A stretch of DNA of 64,000 bases from Vibrio sinaloensis (GTDB lineage: Bacteria; Pseudomonadota; Gammaproteobacteria; Enterobacterales; Vibrionaceae). Positions 5,919-62,637 of this stretch are shown here, in pieces. A program made the position numbers and the translations under genes. The stretch covers positions 1 through 64,000 of the forward strand of contig NZ_JWLV01000023.1 of NCBI RefSeq assembly GCF_000808535.1, written 5' to 3'. Positions within the stretch are counted from its first letter, which is position 1. The number at the start of each line of letters is the position of its first letter. Below the pieces are notes generated by a model. The model was given only the letters and a program-made list of their open reading frames with translations. It ran no database searches and was not told the DNA's origin.

Positions 5919-8081
5919 TTAGCTATCACTCTTATAAGCATAGTTGTAGTAACCGTAGCCATAAGAGCTAGAGGCCTTTTTCTCGACAGCGTTCAAGATC
6001 ACGCCTTTCACTTCGATACCCGCTTTTTCAAATCGGTCGCGTGCAACATCGATCTCTTTGACCGTATTTTGGCCAAATCGCGCCACCATTAATGTTGTGC
6101 CAGCCAGTGCACCAACAATACTCGGGTCAGTCACTGCAAGTACTGGTGGGGTATCGACAATAACTAGGTCATACTCACTGCTCGCCCAATCTAATAGCTC
6201 TTTGAAACGTCGGTGCATTAGCAGTTCGGACGGGTTCGGCGGAACTTGCCCGCGAGCAATGATATCCAGATTTTCTATGGAAGTAGTTTTTATTGATTGT
6301 GCTGTATCGATTTTGCCACTCAGTAGATCCGACAAACCATTGTCCCACTTTAAACCAAAAGGTTTCTGTAGGTAGCCTTTACGCATATCCGCATCAATCA
6401 ATAGTACGCGTTGACCGGTTTTAGCCGCGACTGCGGCAAAGTTAGTTGATACAAAAGACTTACCAATACCAGGTGCGGGACCGGAAATCATCAATACATT
6501 ATTGTCTGCTTCCATCATGGCAAAGTGCAAACTAGTACGCAGACCGCGTAGGGCTTCTACAGAAAGATCGGCAGGGTTAGCTTCGGCGAGCAGTGCCATT
6601 TGACCGTCTCGGTGTTTCTTCTTCACCTTACTAAAGAGGCTCTCTTGCATCTCTGAACGTGGCACACTTGCATACACCGATAGGCCAATCTGTTCAATTT
6701 CATCCGGGTTCTCAACGCCACGATGAAACGCAGCTTTTACTAATACAAAGGCAACGCTCAACATACCGCCCAATAGAGTAGCAAGTACTGCAATCAATGG
6801 CTTCTTAGGTTTAACTGGGACCATGTAAGTTTGAGCTGAATCGAGGATGCGTACGTTCCCCACAGTACCAGCTTTGATAATGCTCAGCTCTTGAACCTTG
6901 TTGAGTAGTTGGATGTAGATCTGTTGGTTGACTTCCACATCACGCGTCATACGAAGAATTTCGCGCTGAGTCTTAGGTAGTTTTTGTACTTGTTGATTGA
7001 GGCGCTCTTTTTCATTAAGTAGTGTTTGACGTTTGTCTAGCAGTGAACGGTACGCTGGGTGATCTTTGGTAAAGCGCTGGCTAATGTCGCTTTCTTTAAA
7101 GGTCAACTCATTTAACTGCGCTTCAAGTTCCACCATCACTTTCAGTGTCGATTGCGCTTCAAGACCTAAATCTACCGACTCGTTCTCTTGGCGATATTGA
7201 TTGAGGATATCTTCTGAAGAGGTTAAGTTCGTTTTTATTTCCGGCAAATGTTGTTTTAAAAACGTTAAGCTTTTTTCTGCTTCAGCAGAGTTACGCTCAA
7301 CATTTTGCAAGAAATAGGTTTGGCTAATATGGTTCAGAATGTCGCTGATTAATGTGCGGTCTTCACCTTCAAAGCTAATATTTAAAATACCCGTTTGCTT
7401 ACCGCGCTCGCTAATAGAAAGGTTGCGCTTTAACCATTCAATCGCTTCTAAACGAGAACGCTTAGCAATACCAAATTCAAATCCAGTACTTGATTGAAGA
7501 TCCGTAACAAACAGAGTGTAGTCTTCGTTTTGTGCGAGTTTACCTGCTGTACCTTCAAGAACCACGCGCTCATCTTCACGCACCAGTTGATACTGTTTTT
7601 TATCTGCATCAAGAACGATGAGCTTGTGCTCCATCCCCAGTGCGTAGTCAGGTAGTTCATAGCGGCTAATGGTGATCCGATTGAGGTCACCACTTAGACG
7701 AGCAATGCCTTTACCCACAAGCGGTAGGTATGATGGTGAGGCAACGGTCGTAAGATTAAACTTGTCAACCGTATCACCCAGGATCATGCGGGATTTAATA
7801 ATTTCAATTTCGGTAGTCGCGGAAGATTCTTGTGAAAAGAGTTCCCCCATATCGCCGACCATAGCAGAAATACCACCAGAGCTCTTTTGCTCGATCTGAA
7901 TCAAAGCATCCGCTTTGTAAATTGGAGTTGAAAGCAGAGCAATGGCTACCCCAGCTACGGCAAAAATGGCTGTCACAACGATAATTAGCCACTTCGCGTC
8001 CAATAAAATTCCAAGCAATTTCCCTAGATCGATTTCGTCAGAGGAATTATCGGTTGTTTGTCGAGATTGTTGTGTTGTCAT
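5919..8081 (-). CDS. wzc: Wzc-type tyrosine autokinase / chain-length determinant
   Basis: A 720-residue inner-membrane bacterial tyrosine kinase. The N-terminus carries the Wzz-type chain-length domain, with a first transmembrane helix near residues 33-52, a long periplasmic coiled-coil region, and a second membrane segment near residues 430-450. The cytoplasmic kinase domain has Walker A SGPAPGIGKSF (about residue 535), Walker A' LLIDADMR and Walker B DLVIVDTPP (about residue 642). The C-terminus ends in a tyrosine cluster (SSYGYGYYNYAYKSDS), the site of transphosphorylation. Wzc works with the Wza outer-membrane channel to polymerise and export capsule, and is reset by the Wzb phosphatase. 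It is 37 bases downstream of wzb in the same operon. Confidence 0.95.
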   Translation of the reverse strand: MTTQQSRQTTDNSSDEIDLGKLLGILLDAKWLIIVVTAIFAVAGVAIALLSTPIYKADALIQIEQKSSGGISAMVGDMGELFSQESSATTEIEIIKSRMILGDTVDKFNLTTVASPSYLPLVGKGIARLSGDLNRITISRYELPDYALGMEHKLIVLDADKKQYQLVREDERVVLEGTAGKLAQNEDYTLFVTDLQSSTGFEFGIAKRSRLEAIEWLKRNLSISERGKQTGILNISFEGEDRTLISDILNHISQTYFLQNVERNSAEAEKSLTFLKQHLPEIKTNLTSSEDILNQYRQENESVDLGLEAQSTLKVMVELEAQLNELTFKESDISQRFTKDHPAYRSLLDKRQTLLNEKERLNQQVQKLPKTQREILRMTRDVEVNQQIYIQLLNKVQELSIIKAGTVGNVRILDSAQTYMVPVKPKKPLIAVLATLLGGMLSVAFVLVKAAFHRGVENPDEIEQIGLSVYASVPRSEMQESLFSKVKKKHRDGQMALLAEANPADLSVEALRGLRTSLHFAMMEADNNVLMISGPAPGIGKSFVSTNFAAVAAKTGQRVLLIDADMRKGYLQKPFGLKWDNGLSDLLSGKIDTAQSIKTTSIENLDIIARGQVPPNPSELLMHRRFKELLDWASSEYDLVIVDTPPVLAVTDPSIVGALAGTTLMVARFGQNTVKEIDVARDRFEKAGIEVKGVILNAVEKKASSSYGYGYYNYAYKSDS

Positions 8082-8118
8082 AATGTATTAAGGTTCTTTA
8101 ATTCCTGGCAACGTGGAG

Positions 8119-8559
8119 TTAGAGCTTTTTAGCCCATGCCTCTGCAGATTTTTCAATAAGTTGGTAAGCGTGTTCAAAGGCTTCTCGACTTTGACGGAAA
8201 GGGTCGGGTATGTCCTGTTGTCCAATCCATTGGCCGAATAGCATGGTTTTTCCTCGAGCTTCTGGTGCAATTGAGGTCAACGCTTCCATATGTCCTTTCT
8301 CCATAACCAAAATTAGGTCGTATTGCGCGCACAGCGAAGAGGTAAGTTGTTGAGCTTGGTGCCCAGTTAAGTCAACATCATTTTCTGCGGCAAGCTCCGT
8401 TGCCATATTGTCAGCAGACTTACCGACAAGCCCACTCTTTTCGGCGGCGATACCGGCAGAAGCAATGTGTTTTTCAGGAAGTAACTTTTGTAAAACTCGC
8501 TCACCAGTTGGAGAGCGACAAATGTTGCCTACACAGACGACGAGAATTTTATTAAACAT
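8119..8559 (-). CDS. wzb: Low-molecular-weight protein-tyrosine phosphatase (Wzb/Etp type)
   Basis: A 146-residue LMW phosphatase. The P-loop is VCVGNICRSP, fitting the CX5R motif at the N-terminus, and the general-acid loop is present as DIPDPFRQS. The enzyme removes phosphate from the C-terminal tyrosines of Wzc, allowing the phosphorylation cycle that drives capsule export. I chose the ATG at 8559 (MFNKILVV) because it puts the P-loop at the normal distance from the N-terminus; the frame could also be opened by a TTG 18 bases upstream. It lies between wza and wzc, the usual order. Confidence 0.93.
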   Translation of the reverse strand: MFNKILVVCVGNICRSPTGERVLQKLLPEKHIASAGIAAEKSGLVGKSADNMATELAAENDVDLTGHQAQQLTSSLCAQYDLILVMEKGHMEALTSIAPEARGKTMLFGQWIGQQDIPDPFRQSREAFEHAYQLIEKSAEAWAKKL

Positions 8560-8618
8560 ATCTTCATTTCCCAGCAAGAGTTTAGCTTGCCGGGAGCTCC
8601 ATTTAATTCAACTGGATA

Positions 8619-9752
8619 TTACGGCCAAGTCTTGATACGTAATGCACCTTCGGTAAGCTCGTTAAAGCCAGTGATTGTTGGCATTAATTGACTGATCACG
8701 CGATTCCAACGGGTAAGTGGCGCAGCGGTAACGTAGACAATATCGTAAGGCTTAAGATCAAACTCTGTACCAATCACTAGTGCGGACGCATCTTTGATAT
8801 TCAGTTGGAAAATATCAGCAAGGTGTTCGGATTTGTCACCTGCTGTGCGAATTACAAATACGCCTGTTGCATCCGCTGATAGCTCATTAATACCACCCAC
8901 ATTGCTGAGCGCCTCAGTGAGGCTCATGCCGGCGCGATCCATTTTCAGCAGTTTAGGGTCATTCACTTCACCCATAACAAACACTTTTTGATTGTCGTCA
9001 CGAGGTACGTGGATGATGTCGCCAGATTGCAATAAGCGATTTTGCTTTAGGTCACCACGCTGCATGAGAGCATAAAGTGAAAGAGATTCTTCTACCCCGT
9101 TACGCGTAAGCGTGACATTGCGCCAATCGGCATCTTCTGCGAGTCCACCAGCGTGATTGATAGCATCCAATAGCGTAAGGGGAATGTTAGTAATCGCTTG
9201 CTGGCCTGGCTGAGATATTGCGCCAGTAATGTAAGTTTTTTGCGAGCGAAATGAGGCTACACTTACATCAACTTGCGGGCTCTCCAGATACTTGGCCAAA
9301 CGTTCTGCAATATCAGTTCTTATTTCACGAACGGTTTTGCCTTTAACTTCTACAGTGCCTATGTACGGGTAGAAAATTGTGCCATCAGCATGAACCCAGT
9401 TACCTGATTCAGAAGCACTGCGATATGAGCCGGCAGGAATCGTAAGTTCTGGGTGATCCCACACGGTAACATTCAAGATATCGCCAGGGCCAACTCGATA
9501 CTCGTAGTTGGCGATCATTTGATCTAATTCAGGGTTGGCTTGGGATACAAAGCTGCGCTCTTTAGGCAGCGTGCTAACGGTCTGAGCAGTAAGTGGATAG
9601 AGGTTAACTTGTTCAGAAACCGTGGATTCTTGATTTGTTTCTGTTTCGACGATGTTTTTATTGTCTGTCGAGAGATGTGAGCCTGGAGTTGTACATCCTG
9701 CCAATAACGCTGGGATTACCATCGCAAGCAAAAGCTTTTTTTTAAATTCCAT
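8619..9752 (-). CDS. wza: Wza-type capsule/exopolysaccharide export outer-membrane lipoprotein
   Basis: A 377-residue lipoprotein with the lipobox LLAGC (Cys20). It has the polysaccharide export domain beginning [19 protein letters not shown] (about residues 86-104), followed by SLBB domains containing the TGAISQPGQ and VMGEVNDPK loops, and a C-terminal segment ([11 protein letters not shown]) that in Wza forms the amphipathic outer-membrane helix barrel. It should form the octameric channel through which polysaccharide leaves the cell. It is the first gene of the export operon. I found no RfaH ops element (GGCGGTAG) in the 250 bases upstream. Confidence 0.95.
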
Positions 9753-45162: not shown

Positions 45163-45265
45163 AAATTCGTCACTTGAGTAAAATTTGGTTTATTTTAACT
45201 CAATAAGACAGGGAAGGGCGGCAATTAGTTTCATCGATAAGAAAATTACTATCAGCGATGATGTT

Positions 45266-45287
45266 GGGCTAGGTTTTCGCCTAGCCC
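45266..45287 (-). terminator. Stem-loop after the ArgR paralogue gene
   Basis: An 8-bp perfect stem (45266-45273 with 45280-45287) with a 6-base loop lies 7 bases after the stop. It lacks a clear U-tract, so termination here is uncertain. Confidence 0.4.
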
Positions 45288-45293
45288 GAAATC

Positions 45294-45782
45294 TTATGCG
45301 ACGCCAAGTCGAGTGCGAACCACGCGCTCACATGCGTCGATGTTGTCGGTGTCTTTCGGGATCACCAATACCGTGTCGTTACCGCCAACGGTACCTAGGA
45401 TCTCGGTATGCGGATCAATATCGACTAAGCGAGCCACTAACTGGGCGCTGCCTGGGTGTGTCTTTACCACAACCATGGCTTGGTTGTGGGTAATGAACTC
45501 TATTTGCGAAGATATCGAAGATTCGACGCGCACAGGGGCGGTCTCTACCGTAATGCAGTAGACTTTTTTGCCACACGCATTTTGCACTTTAACCACACCC
45601 AACTGTGACAACAAGCGTGACACAGTCGATTGGCTGATGCCTTCGAAACCAATGTTAATTAAGGCTTCACGCAGTTCGTTTTGAGTGGCAAAACTCTGTT
45701 GTTGTAGCAAGCGCTTACAAGCCGCTGTCAGGGTTTTATCTTCGGTATAATCGATGTTCATAGGGTTTAGAGTTTCACTCAT
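45294..45782 (-). CDS. ArgR-family arginine regulator, second paralogue
   Basis: A 162-residue ArgR-family protein. The N-terminal winged helix has the recognition segment GISQSTVSRLLSQLGVVKV (residues 48-66). The C-terminal hexamerisation domain contains THPGSAQLVARLVD and the effector loop GTVGGNDTV (130-138). In E. coli ArgR this loop reads AGDDT and both Asp residues contact arginine; here the first is Asn135. The sequence is clearly divergent from the ArgR that Vibrio encodes next to mdh, so I regard it as a second, local regulator of the neighbouring arcA-arcC-argF genes. SD GAGGAG supports the ATG at 45782. Tandem ARG boxes lie upstream, suggesting autoregulation. Confidence 0.85.
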   Translation of the reverse strand: MSETLNPMNIDYTEDKTLTAACKRLLQQQSFATQNELREALINIGFEGISQSTVSRLLSQLGVVKVQNACGKKVYCITVETAPVRVESSISSQIEFITHNQAMVVVKTHPGSAQLVARLVDIDPHTEILGTVGGNDTVLVIPKDTDNIDACERVVRTRLGVA

Positions 45783-45996
45783 GGGAACTCCTCAGGTGAC
45801 GTACGGATAAATCGTCCATGTAAACTTAGGCACTCCATTCTCCCTTCTGTGCCCAACGCTTGAGCGGTCACTCTATCGTGGTGACTTAGTTGAATATGGA
45901 GCCAGTTTACCACCAAAGATAGTGCGGCTTTGTGAATGGGATCGCCAAATAAAAAACTAAGTAAAATCTTGATTTTTGGTGATTTGTTCTGAATGG

Positions 45997-46034
45997 ATTG
46001 GATATTTATCCTATTGGTTGAATAAATATCCAAC
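45997..46034 (-). promoter_or_regulatory. Tandem ARG boxes upstream of the ArgR paralogue
   Basis: Two 18-base sites, 45997-46014 and 46017-46034, fit the ARG box (wnTGAATwwwwATTCAnw). The right one has TGAATAAATATCCA (13 of 14 core positions), the left one TGGATATTTATCCT (11 of 14). They are 2 bp apart; E. coli operators are usually 3 bp apart, and 2 bp in the autoregulated argR operator. They also form a 12-bp inverted repeat (45998-46009 with 46022-46033). They lie 215 bases upstream of the paralogue ATG and 41 bases after pyrI. Confidence 0.7.
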
Positions 46035-46040
46035 GAATCA

Positions 46041-46063
46041 AAGGGCTACAGATGGTAGCCCTT
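46041..46063 (-). terminator. Weak terminator after pyrI
   Basis: A perfect 9-bp stem (46041-46049 with 46055-46063) with a 5-base loop lies 12 bases after the pyrI stop. Only a short interrupted U-run follows on the minus strand. Confidence 0.5.
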
Positions 46064-46074
46064 GAAAAGTGAGC

Positions 46075-46539
46075 TTAACGTGCTTCGGCCATGATTTCGC
46101 GTGAGAATACTTTTTCACAGTAGTGACATTTCAGGTGCACGTTTTCCTGTTTTTGTTGAACTTTAAAGCGGCTTTCTACCGGTTCACCATGAGAAATACA
46201 GTTGCTGTTCGGGCAGACAAACACACTTTCAATGCTCTCTGGTAGCGTTAAGTTCAGCTTGCTGACCACCTTGTACTCTTCGATTTGATTAACCGTCGCT
46301 TTTGGTGCGTAGAGTGCCAGTTGACTTGCTTGCTCTTTGGTTAAGTAGGTGTTCTCAATCTTGATCAGATCTTTTGCGCCCAGCGCTGAAGATGGCAAGT
46401 TAAGACCAATCGTTATGCGCTGATTCGCTTTGTGCATTTTGAACAGCTTTAGCACTTTGATACCAACGTGCGCAGGAATATGGTCAATCACAGAGCCGTT
46501 GCGGATTGCTTCTACTTGTAGTTGAGTTTCTTTCACCAT
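46075..46539 (-). CDS. pyrI: Aspartate carbamoyltransferase regulatory subunit
   Basis: A 154-residue regulatory chain. The N-terminal nucleotide-binding domain contains [17 protein letters not shown]. The C-terminal zinc site has four cysteines in CPNSNC and CHYC, which hold the contact with PyrB. It binds CTP/ATP and gives the enzyme allosteric control. An SD (GGAGAGA) precedes the ATG, 17 bases after the pyrB stop, so the subunits are co-translated. Confidence 0.98.
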
Positions 46540-46556
46540 GATGTCTCTCCAGCTGA

Positions 46557-47486
46557 TTAAATGTTTTCGTTAAGAACTAGGGCAAGTAATGCTTCGCGGG
46601 CGTAGACGCCATTTTCTGCTTGTTCGAAGTAGTAAGCATGCTTGGTTTTATCGACATCGACAGTGATCTCGTCAACACGTGGTAGAGGGTGAAGCACTTT
46701 TAGATTGTCGCGCGCTCCTTCAAGAGTGGCGGCGGTTAAGATGAACGCAGACTTCATGTGCGCGTACTCAGACTCATCAAAACGCTCTTTTTGTACGCGA
46801 GTCATGTATAAAACATCCAGCTCTGGCACCACTTCTTCAATGTTGTTGTGCATGCTGAACTTGATGCCTGCTTCCTCAAGCTCTTCACAGATGTAATCAG
46901 GCATAGCTAACGCTTCTGGTGCGATAAAGAAGAAGCGCACATTGTCGAATTTCGCTAGCGCTTGAGTAAGAGAGTGTACGGTGCGGCCGTATTTCAAATC
47001 ACCGACAAAAGCGACGTTGAGGTTGTCTAAAGTGCCTTGCGTTTCATGGATAGAGAACAGGTCGAGCAGCGTTTGAGTCGGGTGTTGGTTTGCTCCGTCA
47101 CCGCCGTTAACAATCGGCACGCCATTAGAAAACTCAGAAGCAAGACGCGCTGCCCCTTCTTGTGGGTGACGCATCACAAACGCATCCACATACGATGAGA
47201 TAACTTGAACCGAGTCCGCCAATGTCTCGCCTTTTTTCGCTAGAGACGTGTTACCACCGTTGTCAAAACCGATTACGCTGCCACCCAAACGCTCAACTGC
47301 CGTTTCAAACGATAGGCGAGTACGCGTTGAAGGCTCAAAGAAGCAGCTGGCTACTACTTTGTTTTTCAGCAATTCAGGGTTGGGTTCTGCCTTTAATCTT
47401 GCTGCGGTATCGACGATAAGCTCTAGCTCTTTGCGGCTGAGCTCTGGGATGGAGATGATGTGCTTTTTAAACAATGAATGCGCCAT
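46557..47486 (-). CDS. pyrB: Aspartate carbamoyltransferase catalytic subunit
   Basis: A 309-residue ATCase catalytic chain. Carbamoyl-phosphate binding motif [14 protein letters not shown] is near residue 49, the Lys loop is [13 protein letters not shown], and the [10 protein letters not shown] motif is near residue 134. [10 protein letters not shown] lies near residue 267. It makes carbamoyl aspartate, the committed step of pyrimidine synthesis. I chose the ATG at 47486 with an AAGGA SD. The message starts 185 bases upstream in a leader with an encoded peptide and attenuator, as in E. coli pyrBI. Confidence 0.98.
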
Positions 47487-47527
47487 AACAGTGTGTCCTT
47501 GTCTCAAATCAAACGTAAATTACAGAC

Positions 47528-47556
47528 AAAAAAAAGCCCCCTAAAATAGGAGGCTT
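47528..47556 (-). terminator. pyrBI attenuator
   Basis: An 8-bp stem (47549-47556 with 47534-47541, one G-U) with loop TATTTTA, followed on the minus strand by eight U (47528-47535). It lies between the leader peptide and pyrB. In E. coli the same layout makes transcription depend on UTP: when UTP is low the polymerase pauses, the ribosome on the leader catches up and blocks the hairpin. The leader stop codon overlaps the base of this hairpin. Confidence 0.9.
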
Positions 47557-47648
47557 TAAAATAGAATCAATGGAGAAAATGAAACAGACAACGATCCCGA
47601 TTCTGGGCGCGTTTGGTAACAACAATTTGTTGTCAGTGGCTGTGTCAT
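47556..47648 (-). CDS. pyrL: pyrBI operon leader peptide
   Basis: A 30-codon open frame with a strong SD (AAGGAG, 9 bases before the ATG), starting MTQPLTTNCCYQ and ending SPLILF, with its TAA at 47556-47558 touching the attenuator stem. The U-rich second half (for example GTTTCATTTTCTCC) can act as the UTP-sensitive pause region. The E. coli leader is 44 residues; the sequence is not conserved but the position, SD, stop placement and U-richness are. The peptide itself probably has no function. It is too short for routine gene finders. Confidence 0.85.
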   Translation of the reverse strand: MTQPLTTNCCYQTRPESGSLSVSFSPLILF

Positions 47649-47665
47649 TTTTGCTACTCCTTAGA

Positions 47666-47706
47666 CAAATTGCGGAGGATTATACGCACAAAAAAACGCC
47701 TTGCAA
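47666..47706 (-). promoter_or_regulatory. pyrBI promoter with AAUUUG initial transcribed region
   Basis: A -35 TTGCAA (47701-47706) and perfect -10 TATAAT (47679-47684) are 16 bases apart. Seven bases after the -10 the transcript begins AATTTG (47671 down to 47666). In E. coli pyrBI the start AAUUUG lies at the same distance and allows UTP-dependent reiterative (slippage) initiation, a second layer of control. The identical start and spacing suggest the same mechanism here. Confidence 0.85.
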
Positions 47707-47716
47707 GCGTTTGCGA
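47701..47716 (-). promoter_or_regulatory. Candidate PurR box over the pyrBI -35
   Basis: TCGCAAACGCTTGCAA matches nine of the eleven fixed positions of the PurR consensus (ANGCAANCGNTTNCNT), missing only the outer A and T. It covers the whole -35 box, so binding would block RNA polymerase. Confidence 0.5.
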
Positions 47717-47833
47717 AAAGTATCCAGAAATTGGATTTTTATGCGAATTTCGCATATTTTCGCTTCGTTTTCTCAGTCATTGTGAGAACTTGCTTGAAGG
47801 CGTTTGGGTCGCTATTTTGTTTCAATCTGTGTG

Positions 47834-47890
47834 AAAAAAAATGCGGACTTTATTCATGGAGTGATAACTCTAATCCTGCCGTCCGCATTT
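47834..47890 (-). terminator. Terminator after argF/arcB
   Basis: A perfect 10-bp stem (47839-47848 with 47881-47890) closes a 32-base loop and is followed on the minus strand by U from the A run at 47834-47840. It begins 10 bases after the argF stop. Confidence 0.8.
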
Positions 47891-47899
47891 CCCTGCAGA

Positions 47900-48910
47900 T
47901 TAGTCGCCTAGAGTAGCAACCATTACAGCTTTGATGGTGTGCATGCGGTTTTCTGCTTCGTCGAATACGATAGAGTGTTTAGACTCAACCACTTCGTCTG
48001 TTACTTCCACACCGTCTTTCAGTTGTGGGTATTCCGCCGCAAGCTGTTTACCAACTGTTGTGTCTTCACCGTGGAATGCTGGTAGGCAGTGCATGAATTT
48101 CACATGTGGGTTGCCTGTTGCTTTTAGCATGTCCATGTTGACTTGGTAAGGCATCATTAGGTTGATACGCTCAGCCCATGCTTCTTTCGCTTCGCCCATC
48201 GATACCCATACGTCAGTGTATAGGTAGTCACAGCCTTGAACGCCTTCTTGAACGTCTTCAGTTAGAGTGATCTTCGCACCTGTTTCTTCTGCGATTTCGC
48301 GACATGTTGCTACTAGCTCTTCTTCTGGCCAGAATGCTTTTGGTGCTACTAGGCGAATGTCCATGCCCATTTTCGCTGCGCCAACCATTAGAGAGTTACC
48401 CATGTTGTTGCGCGCATCACCTAGGTAAGCAAACTTCATTTCGTGTAGCTGTTTACCACGGCCGTGTTCCATCATAGTTAGGAAGTCAGCTAGGATTTGA
48501 GTTGGGTGGAATTCGTCTGTTAGGCCGTTCCATACTGGCACGCCAGCGTAAGCGCCTAGCTCTTCAACGATTTCTTGACCGAAACCACGGTACTCGATGC
48601 CGTCATACATGCGGCCAAGAACGCGTGCTGTATCTTTCATTGACTCTTTGTGACCGATTTGAGAGCCAGATGGGCCTAAGTAAGAAACTTGAGCGCCTTG
48701 GTCAAATGCTGCAACTTCAAATGCACAACGTGTACGAGTTGATGTTTTCTCGAAGATTAGGGCAATGTTTTTGCCTTTTAGACGAGGTTGCTCATAGCCG
48801 TTGTATTTCGCTTTTTTCAGCTCCGCTGATAGATCCAAGAAGTGTTGGATTTCACGTGGAGTAAAGTCTAGTAGTTTTAGGAAGTTACGGTTGCGTAGGT
48901 TGAAAGCCAT
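47900..48910 (-). CDS. argF: Ornithine carbamoyltransferase
   Basis: A 336-residue OTC. Carbamoyl-phosphate motif [14 protein letters not shown] is near residue 54, the [15 protein letters not shown] motif is near residue 135, and the ornithine-binding SMGE and catalytic HCLPAFH motifs follow. Its place after arcA-arcC suggests the catabolic role (arcB): phosphorolysis of citrulline to ornithine and carbamoyl phosphate. Sequence alone does not separate the anabolic and catabolic enzymes. I chose the ATG at 48910, with SD AAGGAAA and the normal N-terminus [16 protein letters not shown]. Confidence 0.95.
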
Positions 48911-51370: not shown

Positions 51371-51995
51371 TTATTTGTTCTGGAATTAATATTACGCCTC
51401 TCTGGGGAGGAATCTTAGAGATCGCTCACAATTCATTTTTTATGCTCAAAGCCCCGTATTTAAAGGGTTTTAACAATATCTATGCACTTGTTATTTCGCT
51501 GTGAACACCCTAATCACGCATTATTTGGGGAAGTTTATGCATGAAATATTCACCAAGGTTTGTTGTTAGGTGTAGAAAGGGAAATGTATTCAAAAATAAT
51601 TGCGTGATAAAAAAGTGAATAGGTTAGAAATATGCACTCAAACTTTCTAGATAAGTGTTTTTTAGGTCGAAATTAATCCTCTGGTAACAAATGTTTTGTT
51701 GGTAACTTATACATAGATCACAAAACTCAGTTTGCTAGTTCCTAGAAATTTTCTGTTTGAAATAAATAAAACTGTGCCATGAAGATAAAATATCTAATAT
51801 AAAAACGTTCTGTTATTTACTCTTTTTATTTGTTATCGCTATAACCTTGATGACAACGCTATTTAGCGTGGCTTAGCTGCCAGATGAAGGGTGAGTGTTA
51901 GGTGGTTGATTCGTAAAGGGAGAGGCGTGAAAAACGCTGGGTTTGCGTCATTGAAGATGCGTTCGACTTTGCGGGCAACGGTGATTAGGCCAAAT

Positions 51996-53557: not shown

Positions 53558-53896
53558 GAATCAGCGACTATTAGATTTAAAAAATAAATAACTTAGGGAA
53601 TAAGTTATTGGTAAATTTGTTTTTATTTAATTAGGAACTTATTAGCTCTTGTGGGTTATTTTAAAATGTCATTCACTCTGTAACTTTGGTGATCTTCACA
53701 AAAATATTCAGTAAAAAATAGGTGGTGTGATGAGTGTTTTTTTTATGTGGTTAATTGGTTAGAAAGAAGGGATTTCTATGCCAAAGGATTGATGTAAACC
53801 CTTTTGTCAGGGGCGGTAAACCAGTAAAAAAAAGATAGGTGGGAATTTTATTCAAAGCGGCGGATTTAAATGCACAAAGAACTTTCGAGAACTTTT

Positions 53897-53910
53897 TTGA
53901 TTAATATCAA
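53897..53910 (-). promoter_or_regulatory. Perfect FNR box
   Basis: TTGATTAATATCAA is an exact match to TTGAT-N4-ATCAA. It lies upstream of the YfcC-type transporter gene on the minus strand. A TTTAAA -10-like hexamer at 53865-53870 would give a class II activation geometry, with a start near 53858 and a leader of about 340 bases. Confidence 0.65.
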
Positions 53911-61103: not shown

Positions 61104-61467
61104 ATAGGTATTGGTCTTCTTCTAGGCATCGTTGCTGGTCAAAGTGATCATAGCGACCTTTAGGTCCCTTAAAGTGAATGTTCACCACCATGCCTTTATC
61201 TACGAAGTAGCGCAGGTTATCGCAGGAGACCTCACGACCAATCTTCTTGATAATGGTCGTTTTCCAGTGGTGTCTCGGCGGCAGTGTTTGCACTAAAGAG
61301 ATAACGCCAGACTCATCGACAGTCAAATCATCAATACCTGCCAGCGCAGTGCGAGCTTCTTCAATGGTTTGTTTATCTGCTGTTGGTGTTGGAACATCTG
61401 ACGTTGATTGACAACCAACCAGTGCGAGCGAAGCCACTAGGCTTGCGACGATTGCATTAAATTTCAT
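61102..61467 (-). CDS. Small predicted lipoprotein of unknown function
   Basis: A 121-residue protein with a signal peptide and lipobox ALVGC (Cys19), then a Thr/Pro-rich linker (STSDVPTPTADKQT). The mature domain has LAGIDDLTVDESGVISLVQTLPPRHHW and two cysteines (VSCDNLRYF and QRCLEEDQYL) that may form a disulfide. I do not recognise the family. It is divergent from pabA and convergent with the nuclease gene, and is probably a single-gene unit. Confidence 0.75.
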   Translation of the reverse strand: MKFNAIVASLVASLALVGCQSTSDVPTPTADKQTIEEARTALAGIDDLTVDESGVISLVQTLPPRHHWKTTIIKKIGREVSCDNLRYFVDKGMVVNIHFKGPKGRYDHFDQQRCLEEDQYL

Positions 61468-61689
61468 TATATTTCTCTGTAACTATTTGTTGTGTATCTG
61501 CTTTTATTAGCGGCTCAATCATATGATAGATTTGCGGTGTGCATCTAATGCTTATTTGTATTTGTTTTAATTATCGTTATCTGTAGCAAGTTTAAGAACA
61601 TATTGCCCGAGCGATTATTACTTGCCTTTCTATCTTCTTATTGCACAATACCGCTCCTAACTTCGAAATACTTAGTGCTTGTTTCTGCC

Positions 61690-62268: not shown

Positions 62269-62637
62269 ACCCTGACTGGGATCACCTTTCTTAACATTTC
62301 TTTCATAATTCAAGCGGCGAATATTCTGTGAAAAACTATTCGCAGCCTATGTCATTGCTACCTTTCAGCCCTTGCTATGCCTATGCTTAATCAGAGCTTA
62401 TCTTTGTTATAAGAATATATTGCTTCATAAAACGAGTGGCATCGTGCATAAATACTCACACATGATGGGAATTCGGCTTTTTCAGTGTGGATAAAAAGCA
62501 TAAATCACTATTGAAAAGGTTAATTGTTTGTAAATACAATGCCGTAATTGCTTAAAAGCAAAACAATATCTTATTTCATTGAATAGAAGTAAGGACACCA
62601 TATTCGCTATGCATGCGGTATCGAGAGGGAATGTGCA
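62269..62637. other. Regulatory region between pabA and argD
   Basis: About 370 AT-rich bases. It contains one ARG-box-like site (62445-62458) and no terminator or gene that I can support. The argD promoter must be here, but no clear -10/-35 pair stands out. Confidence 0.5.
62445..62458 (+). promoter_or_regulatory. ARG-box-like site upstream of argD
   Basis: TGCATAAATACTCA matches 12 of 14 core positions of the ARG box (TGAATwwwwATTCA). It is 180 bases upstream of the argD ATG. A second box at the usual spacing is not visible. Confidence 0.5.

Follow-up and report, generated by a model that had tools for sequence, protein, structure and literature searches.

The window, that is, the whole 64,000-nt stretch of Vibrio sinaloensis DNA analysed here, carries one of the two ArgR genes of this genome, argR2, while the canonical one (argR1) lies on another contig. 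ArgR2 (45294–45782, minus strand; 162 aa) has both the DNA-binding (PF01316) and the C-terminal (PF02863) domain of the ArgR/AhrC family above the cut-off and is 99% identical to its counterpart in V. sinaloensis DSM 21326. The gene ends a minus-strand arginine deiminase (ADI) and pyrimidine cluster, in the order arcD, arcA, arcC, arcB, pyrB, pyrI and argR2; the names other than argR2 and pyrI are those we presume from recognising the sequences and from the V. fluvialis cluster (PMC11172107). Its upstream neighbour, pyrI (46075–46539, minus strand; tested against Pfam), is transcribed toward argR2. A hairpin after pyrI (AAGGGCTAC-CATCT-GTAGCCCTT; 46041–46063, minus strand) has, by eye, no counterpart in several relatives and is therefore not the conserved element of this region.

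Two ARG-like boxes of 18 bp lie between these genes, both read directly on the plus strand and neither assigned to a strand: box 1 at 45997–46014 (ATTGGATATTTATCCTAT) and box 2 at 46017–46034 (GTTGAATAAATATCCAAC). The gap between them is 2 bp and the centre-to-centre distance 20 bp, within the roughly 20–21 bp of paired-box operators. An inverted repeat (45998–46033, no strand) encloses both, and its arms, TTGGATATTTAT (45998–46009) and ATAAATATCCAA (46022–46033), are exact 12-bp reverse complements. The original prediction had described just this geometry, with the pair nested in a 12-bp inverted repeat just after pyrI, whose frame ends at 46075, and 215 bases upstream of the argR2 ATG, which begins at 45782; direct reading confirmed each of these points. 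The 2-bp gap, which it had likened to that of the E. coli argR operator, is not confined to argR here: the cluster's arcD operator (TGTGCATTTAAATCCGCC-GC-TTTGAATAAAATTCCCAC; 53839–53876, minus strand), likewise two boxes at 20-bp spacing, shares it.

Each box differs from the E. coli ARG consensus WNTGAATWWWWATTCANW at three positions. Sites this close number 16 in the window against 12.4 expected, with 16 or more in 25 of 100 shuffles. We scored the window with a weight matrix of 18 bp derived from other species' arcD operators (15 distinct ones), taking only pairs spaced by 20 bp with at most four mismatches; many other arcD upstream regions, including splendidus-like ones, show nothing of this kind at that spacing. 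Taken singly, the boxes score 11.6 and 7.0, both below the best single box of every one of 12 simulated 64-kb sequences (12.2–16.2); among 63,983 single boxes in the window, box 1 ranks 41st and box 2 10th. A single-box scan with WWTGMATWWWWATKCAWW (at most two mismatches) was also tried and rejected, returning 76 sites in the genome and 60 for the reversed control. With the scan near the control level and the scores not above simulated sequence, single boxes are unusable as evidence. Scored as a pair at 20-bp spacing, on a matrix whose training pairs were selected for that spacing and whose consensus letters were picked after viewing the sequences, the boxes at 45997 reach 18.6, the second of about 64,000 positions behind the arcD operator, and the highest such score in the 12 simulated sequences is 14.6. 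When spacings other than 20 bp were scored, the top pair outside arcD (15.6, at 19 bp) lay upstream of pyrB. It is pairing and conservation, not single boxes, that set the element above chance.

Across relatives, the element appears as a mirror pair, TGGATATTTATTC and GAATAAATATCCA, flanking a short variable middle. With at most one mismatch, this palindrome occurs in 44 of 148 genomes of the genus, once in 43 and twice in one, against 2 of 148 for the reversed control. At the places inspected, argR2 adjoins it in 43 of those 44 genomes; genome G202, whose match with one mismatch looks like chance, stands outside this count, and the second match in genome G196 has no argR2 within the 2 kb retrieved. 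Of the 49 argR2 loci from named species or bins, 37 carry the operator at the same place upstream of the gene (at most two mismatches), which upholds the predicted link of the boxes to the ArgR paralogue. Weaker copies occur in V. sonorensis (three mismatches) and V. genomosp. F10 (four), and the operator is absent from the remaining 10 loci, those of V. mytili, V. tetraodonis, V. furnissii, V. aestuarianus, V. ordalii, V. zhanjiangensis, V. anguillarum, V. metschnikovii, V. injensis and a metagenome bin. By eye, the spacer upstream of argR2 in three of these holds one more canonical ARG box, TGCATATTATTCCA in V. anguillarum and V. ordalii and TGAATAATATTCCA in V. aestuarianus. In a hand count of 31 genomes scored both ways, which are not independent cases because the species are related, the pattern was present in 16 of 20 with argR2 and in none of 11 without it.

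The V. ostreicida locus separates the element from the cluster. In its 19 kb, arcD, arcA, arcB, pyrB and pyrI were not found; by eye, aspartase-like and dcuA-like genes are followed by argR2, and no arcDACB-pyrBI block was found in the interval from the dcuA-like gene to argR2 (7356–9739 of this locus, L221). The operator, with two mismatches, the promoter and argR2 are all kept. The operator is retained here without pyrBI, so it is argR2, not pyrI, that the element accompanies. The V. ostreicida genome yielded a single arcA homologue, 75% identical and on another contig; the genome of the window has a second arcA homologue, likewise 75% identical, and this shared value suggests that the V. 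ostreicida gene is probably its counterpart.

The boxes had been thought to mark the promoter itself, followed by a leader of about 215 nt. Neither proposal was supported, since a conserved promoter signature lies downstream, about 77 bp from the operator, and the operator is thus placed remotely upstream rather than over the promoter. In most relatives the signature reads TTTGGYGATCNNNTTCAMAAAG and then TGNTANNNT. Its counterparts in the window, both on the minus strand, are a CRP/FNR-like site, TTTGGCGATCCCATTCACAAAG (45928–45949), and an extended −10 element, TGGTAAACT (45904–45912), which is TGNTANNNT in relatives. Exactly 29 nt separate the centre of the site from the −10 hexamer in 83 of the 88 loci, a set in which some species appear twice and other genera of the family are included; in the five exceptions (L213, L079, L088, L097 and L099) the site itself matches poorly, with 7–8 mismatches. 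This distance would place the site at −41.5 and the start, judged from the −10 element, near 45897, leaving a leader of about 115 nt (45783–45897, minus strand). In class II promoters, CRP and FNR bind at −41.5, and with the start so placed the site is centred there. Its half-sites are GGYGA and TCAMA, and the window has 8 of 10 CRP and 6 of 10 FNR core letters by a hand count on the consensuses, letters that would suit either protein.

The centre of the operator would then lie at about −118.5. Measured between centres, it is 77 bp from the proximal site in the window. Among the 59 rows limited to two palindrome and three site mismatches or fewer, 57 have 76–78 bp; the other two rows, both from V. 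ostreicida, have 87 bp, about one helical turn more. The promoter is kept in V. furnissii, V. metschnikovii and V. zhanjiangensis, whose loci have no operator, and this suggests that the operator may be a later control on an older promoter. A search of 45200–48000 against Rfam gave nothing above the gathering score and six sub-threshold matches, one of them PreQ1-like at 45932–45966 on the strand opposite to argR2. Short conserved stems were found in one clade when 10 leaders were folded, and a CGCTCA stretch of the leader could pair with the start-codon region, again in one clade. These stems are weakly supported; their pairs are mostly invariant, so covariation says little, and we make no claim for a leader structure.

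Further ArgR-type sites occur within the cluster. Upstream of the arcD boxes lies a perfect FNR-like site, TTGATATTAATCAA (53897–53910, minus strand), at a conserved spacing: with at most one mismatch, such a site is present in 31 of 39 arcD upstream regions, against 52 of 760 shuffled ones, and in 27 of the 31 it is 56–58 nt from the box. Thus, the arrangement of ArgR boxes with a CRP/FNR-family site recurs within the cluster. The available text of a comparative FNR/ArcA study makes no mention of arginine (PMC1805755). The box upstream of arcA (CATGCATAAACTTCCCCA; 51526–51543, minus strand) resembles site 2 of V. fluvialis arcACB (TTTGCATAAACTTCCTCA). In V. furnissii, the region near −515 upstream of arcD reads AACTGAATAAAATTCCCC, and the arcD operator of the window contains the same box; ArgR site 1 of V. 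fluvialis arcD was footprinted at −515 to −498, and V. furnissii has been placed near V. fluvialis (PMC11172107). An ADI-type box upstream of pyrB (TTCGCATAAAAATCCAAT; 47730–47747, minus strand) has a counterpart in all 42 named loci having both arcB and pyrB (scores 9.2–15.8), which suggests a putative ArgR input on pyrBI beside an apparent attenuator. This box faces a second TGGAT half-site, and its single-box score is not above that of simulated sequence.

A close experimental parallel is the cluster-linked ArgR of V. fluvialis, encoded downstream of arcB, which binds and activates arcD and arcACB from sites, footprinted or mutated, far upstream of both tested promoters; L-arginine induces the cluster, and mutation of arcACB site 4 raised activity (PMC11172107). 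The window resembles that system in the position of the gene in the cluster, in its far upstream sites and in the type of arcD box. V. furnissii, near V. fluvialis, lacks an operator of the window type and has kept the promoter and argR2. The text of the V. fluvialis paper does not contain the word stem 'autoregul' (PMC11172107).

Resemblance to E. coli is partial. The two boxes of the E. coli argR operator are 2 bp apart and overlie the promoter. The pair in the window has the same gap and would lie about 119 bp upstream of its start, as we place it, instead of over the promoter, and so departs from the layout of an autorepressed argR of the E. coli type. In E. coli paired operators, the canonical gap is 3 bp and one hexamer binds two 18-bp semi-palindromic boxes (PMC6640053); the window likewise has two such boxes, but unlike those of E. 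coli they mirror each other and carry TGGAT as outer half-sites. This half-site deviates from the published Vibrio consensus, and in box 1 it is almost invariant across 50 distinct homologues.

We favour, at a probability of about three in four, the reading that the element is the paired ArgR-type operator of argR2, bound by the ADI-linked ArgR and remotely modulating a promoter driven by a CRP/FNR-family activator. That ArgR2 binds, which activator occupies the proximal site, where transcription starts and in which direction the regulation works are all points that we infer. Speaking against this reading are the absence of the operator from 10 of 49 named loci, V. furnissii included, its mostly joint occurrence with pyrI, and the departures from consensus at the TGGAT half-site and arm position 14. 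In our model, a hexamer of the ADI-linked ArgR, here presumably ArgR2, would bind both boxes when arginine is present and, from about 119 bp upstream of the start, would modulate the separate argR2 promoter, which in turn would be driven by an activator, probably of the CRP/FNR family, bound at −41.5. The gene would then sense arginine by way of its own product, and a carbon or oxygen signal by way of the site close to its promoter. By analogy with V. fluvialis, the linked ADI-type ArgR is the likeliest ligand of the boxes. Autoregulation of argR2 is likely, because the linked ArgR of V. fluvialis activates arcD and arcACB and because V. ostreicida retains operator, promoter and argR2; that this last species does so without the cluster genes supports autoregulation as the likeliest purpose, as had been predicted.

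The boxes could instead be read mainly by the canonical housekeeping ArgR1, as an external tuning of argR2 by arginine, or by mixed ArgR1/ArgR2 hexamers. We consider this improbable, although they still resemble the general ARG consensus and the recognition helices of the two proteins have Q43, S44, V46, S47 and R48 in common. At position 45 of this helix (E. coli numbering), however, all 20 ArgR1 proteins have K and all 49 ArgR2 proteins T. Similar boxes at arcD, arcA and pyrB of the same cluster also argue against ArgR1, as does the absence of the pattern from the 11 genomes without argR2 compared above, each of which has one ArgR match only, of canonical strength. The argE-argC operator is spaced at 21 bp in 30 of 30 loci (positions in this spacer being counted from the divergent argE-like frame, not from argC), yet the pairs before argR1, which are weak (5–10 mismatches of 28), have 20 bp as their best spacing in 16 of 20 loci; since these also favour 20 bp, we do not propose spacing as a rule for telling the paralogues apart. 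A very different proposal, that the inverted repeat acts as RNA, as a hairpin that forms the 3' end of the pyrBI mRNA or protects it from decay, appears to us highly improbable. The repeat does lie just 3' of pyrI in the transcribed direction, and it mostly goes with that gene, being present (at most three mismatches) in 37 of the 42 loci that have pyrI upstream; of the 7 that do not, 1 has it and one more has a decayed copy. V. ostreicida nevertheless has the element without pyrBI, V. furnissii, V. mytili and others have pyrI without the element, the distance to the downstream promoter is almost fixed, and no T-run follows the repeat in the window.

The arms themselves speak to the same question. 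Screening 118 oriented loci with three mismatches allowed gave 50 distinct copies from 89 loci, in which arm positions 1–11 and 13 are Watson-Crick paired in at least 47 of 50, and position 14, at the inner end, in 33. Position 12 is paired in 36, forms G-T in 5 and is mismatched in 9, so that pairing is broken or wobbles in 14 of 50 copies while the flanking pairs stay intact: the left letter is T in 39, G in 10 and C in 1, the right letter A in 41, G in 7 and C in 2, and the neighbours are fixed. In the ARG half-site this is the position that admits A/C (G/T), where an operator is degenerate, and variation here is predicted for a protein-bound ARG box and not for an RNA stem. Position 14, with which the inner half-site ends, counts against that reading, being mostly C/G where the ARG consensus has A/T. 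At positions 1 and 7, both sides have changed jointly in a few species; such symmetric changes favour a hairpin, and would also arise from palindrome repair. An intrinsic terminator or RNA hairpin was rejected on position 12 and the missing T-run, though positions 1 and 7 compensate.

Within the operator reading, a further alternative differs in sign. ArgR2 at about −119 could bend or loop the DNA, hinder the CRP/FNR-type promoter and thereby limit its own level. Negative autoregulation is common among regulators, argR belongs to the core of the gammaproteobacterial ArgR regulon (PMC5343134), and the distance between operator and promoter is conserved. Against this, activation from sites far upstream is what the V. 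fluvialis ArgR shows at the two promoters tested (PMC11172107), and for that reason we favour positive autoregulation, by analogy and at slightly better than an even chance, and hold repression to be the less probable sign.

ArgR2 also differs from ArgR1 in its arginine pocket. Position 128, in E. coli numbering, is D in 20 of 20 ArgR1 and N in 49 of 49 ArgR2 proteins, so the Gly-Asp-Asp of the pocket is not intact in ArgR2, in which D129 is kept. Asp128 belongs to the arginine pocket of ArgR (PMC7248756, PMC2880562), and some ArgRs lack its equivalent, so Gly-Asp-Asp is not strictly defining (PMC7248756). As a tentative extension, which we think rather doubtful, the ADI-linked ArgR might have diverged to a type of box of its own (about NGMATWWWWATCCA, with TGGAT) and to an arginine pocket altered by D128N, and might activate its own gene from a remote operator in helical phase, solely while a CRP/FNR-family activator is bound as well. 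Such an AND switch, reading arginine together with carbon or oxygen, might commit the cell to arginine fermentation, and might have persisted alone in V. ostreicida after the loss of its targets.

Control of argR by ArgR is already known: argR is a core member of the predicted gammaproteobacterial regulon, as it would be here, whereas arcABCD are genome-specific targets (PMC5343134). The available text of that study contains no description of a further, ADI-linked paralogue under an operator of its own, and our literature search, thin on subscription journals, found no published report of this operator for an ADI-linked argR. What appears to be new are the mirrored boxes, the distinct half-site and the remote, near-constant position. 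If the model is true, a duplicated metabolite-sensing regulator would have changed its box preference, its operator layout and perhaps its response to the ligand, and this change would have accompanied the split of arginine biosynthesis from catabolism. The second ArgR would be the regulator of arginine breakdown in this marine Vibrio, with a suggested control over its own production. Natural variants, namely V. furnissii without the operator, V. anguillarum with other boxes and V. ostreicida without the cluster, make the role of autoregulation directly testable. Elsewhere in the window, ARG-like matches at 61451–61468 and 62443–62460 flank a frame that weakly matches the CarA family, and these are possibly part of the canonical ArgR regulon.
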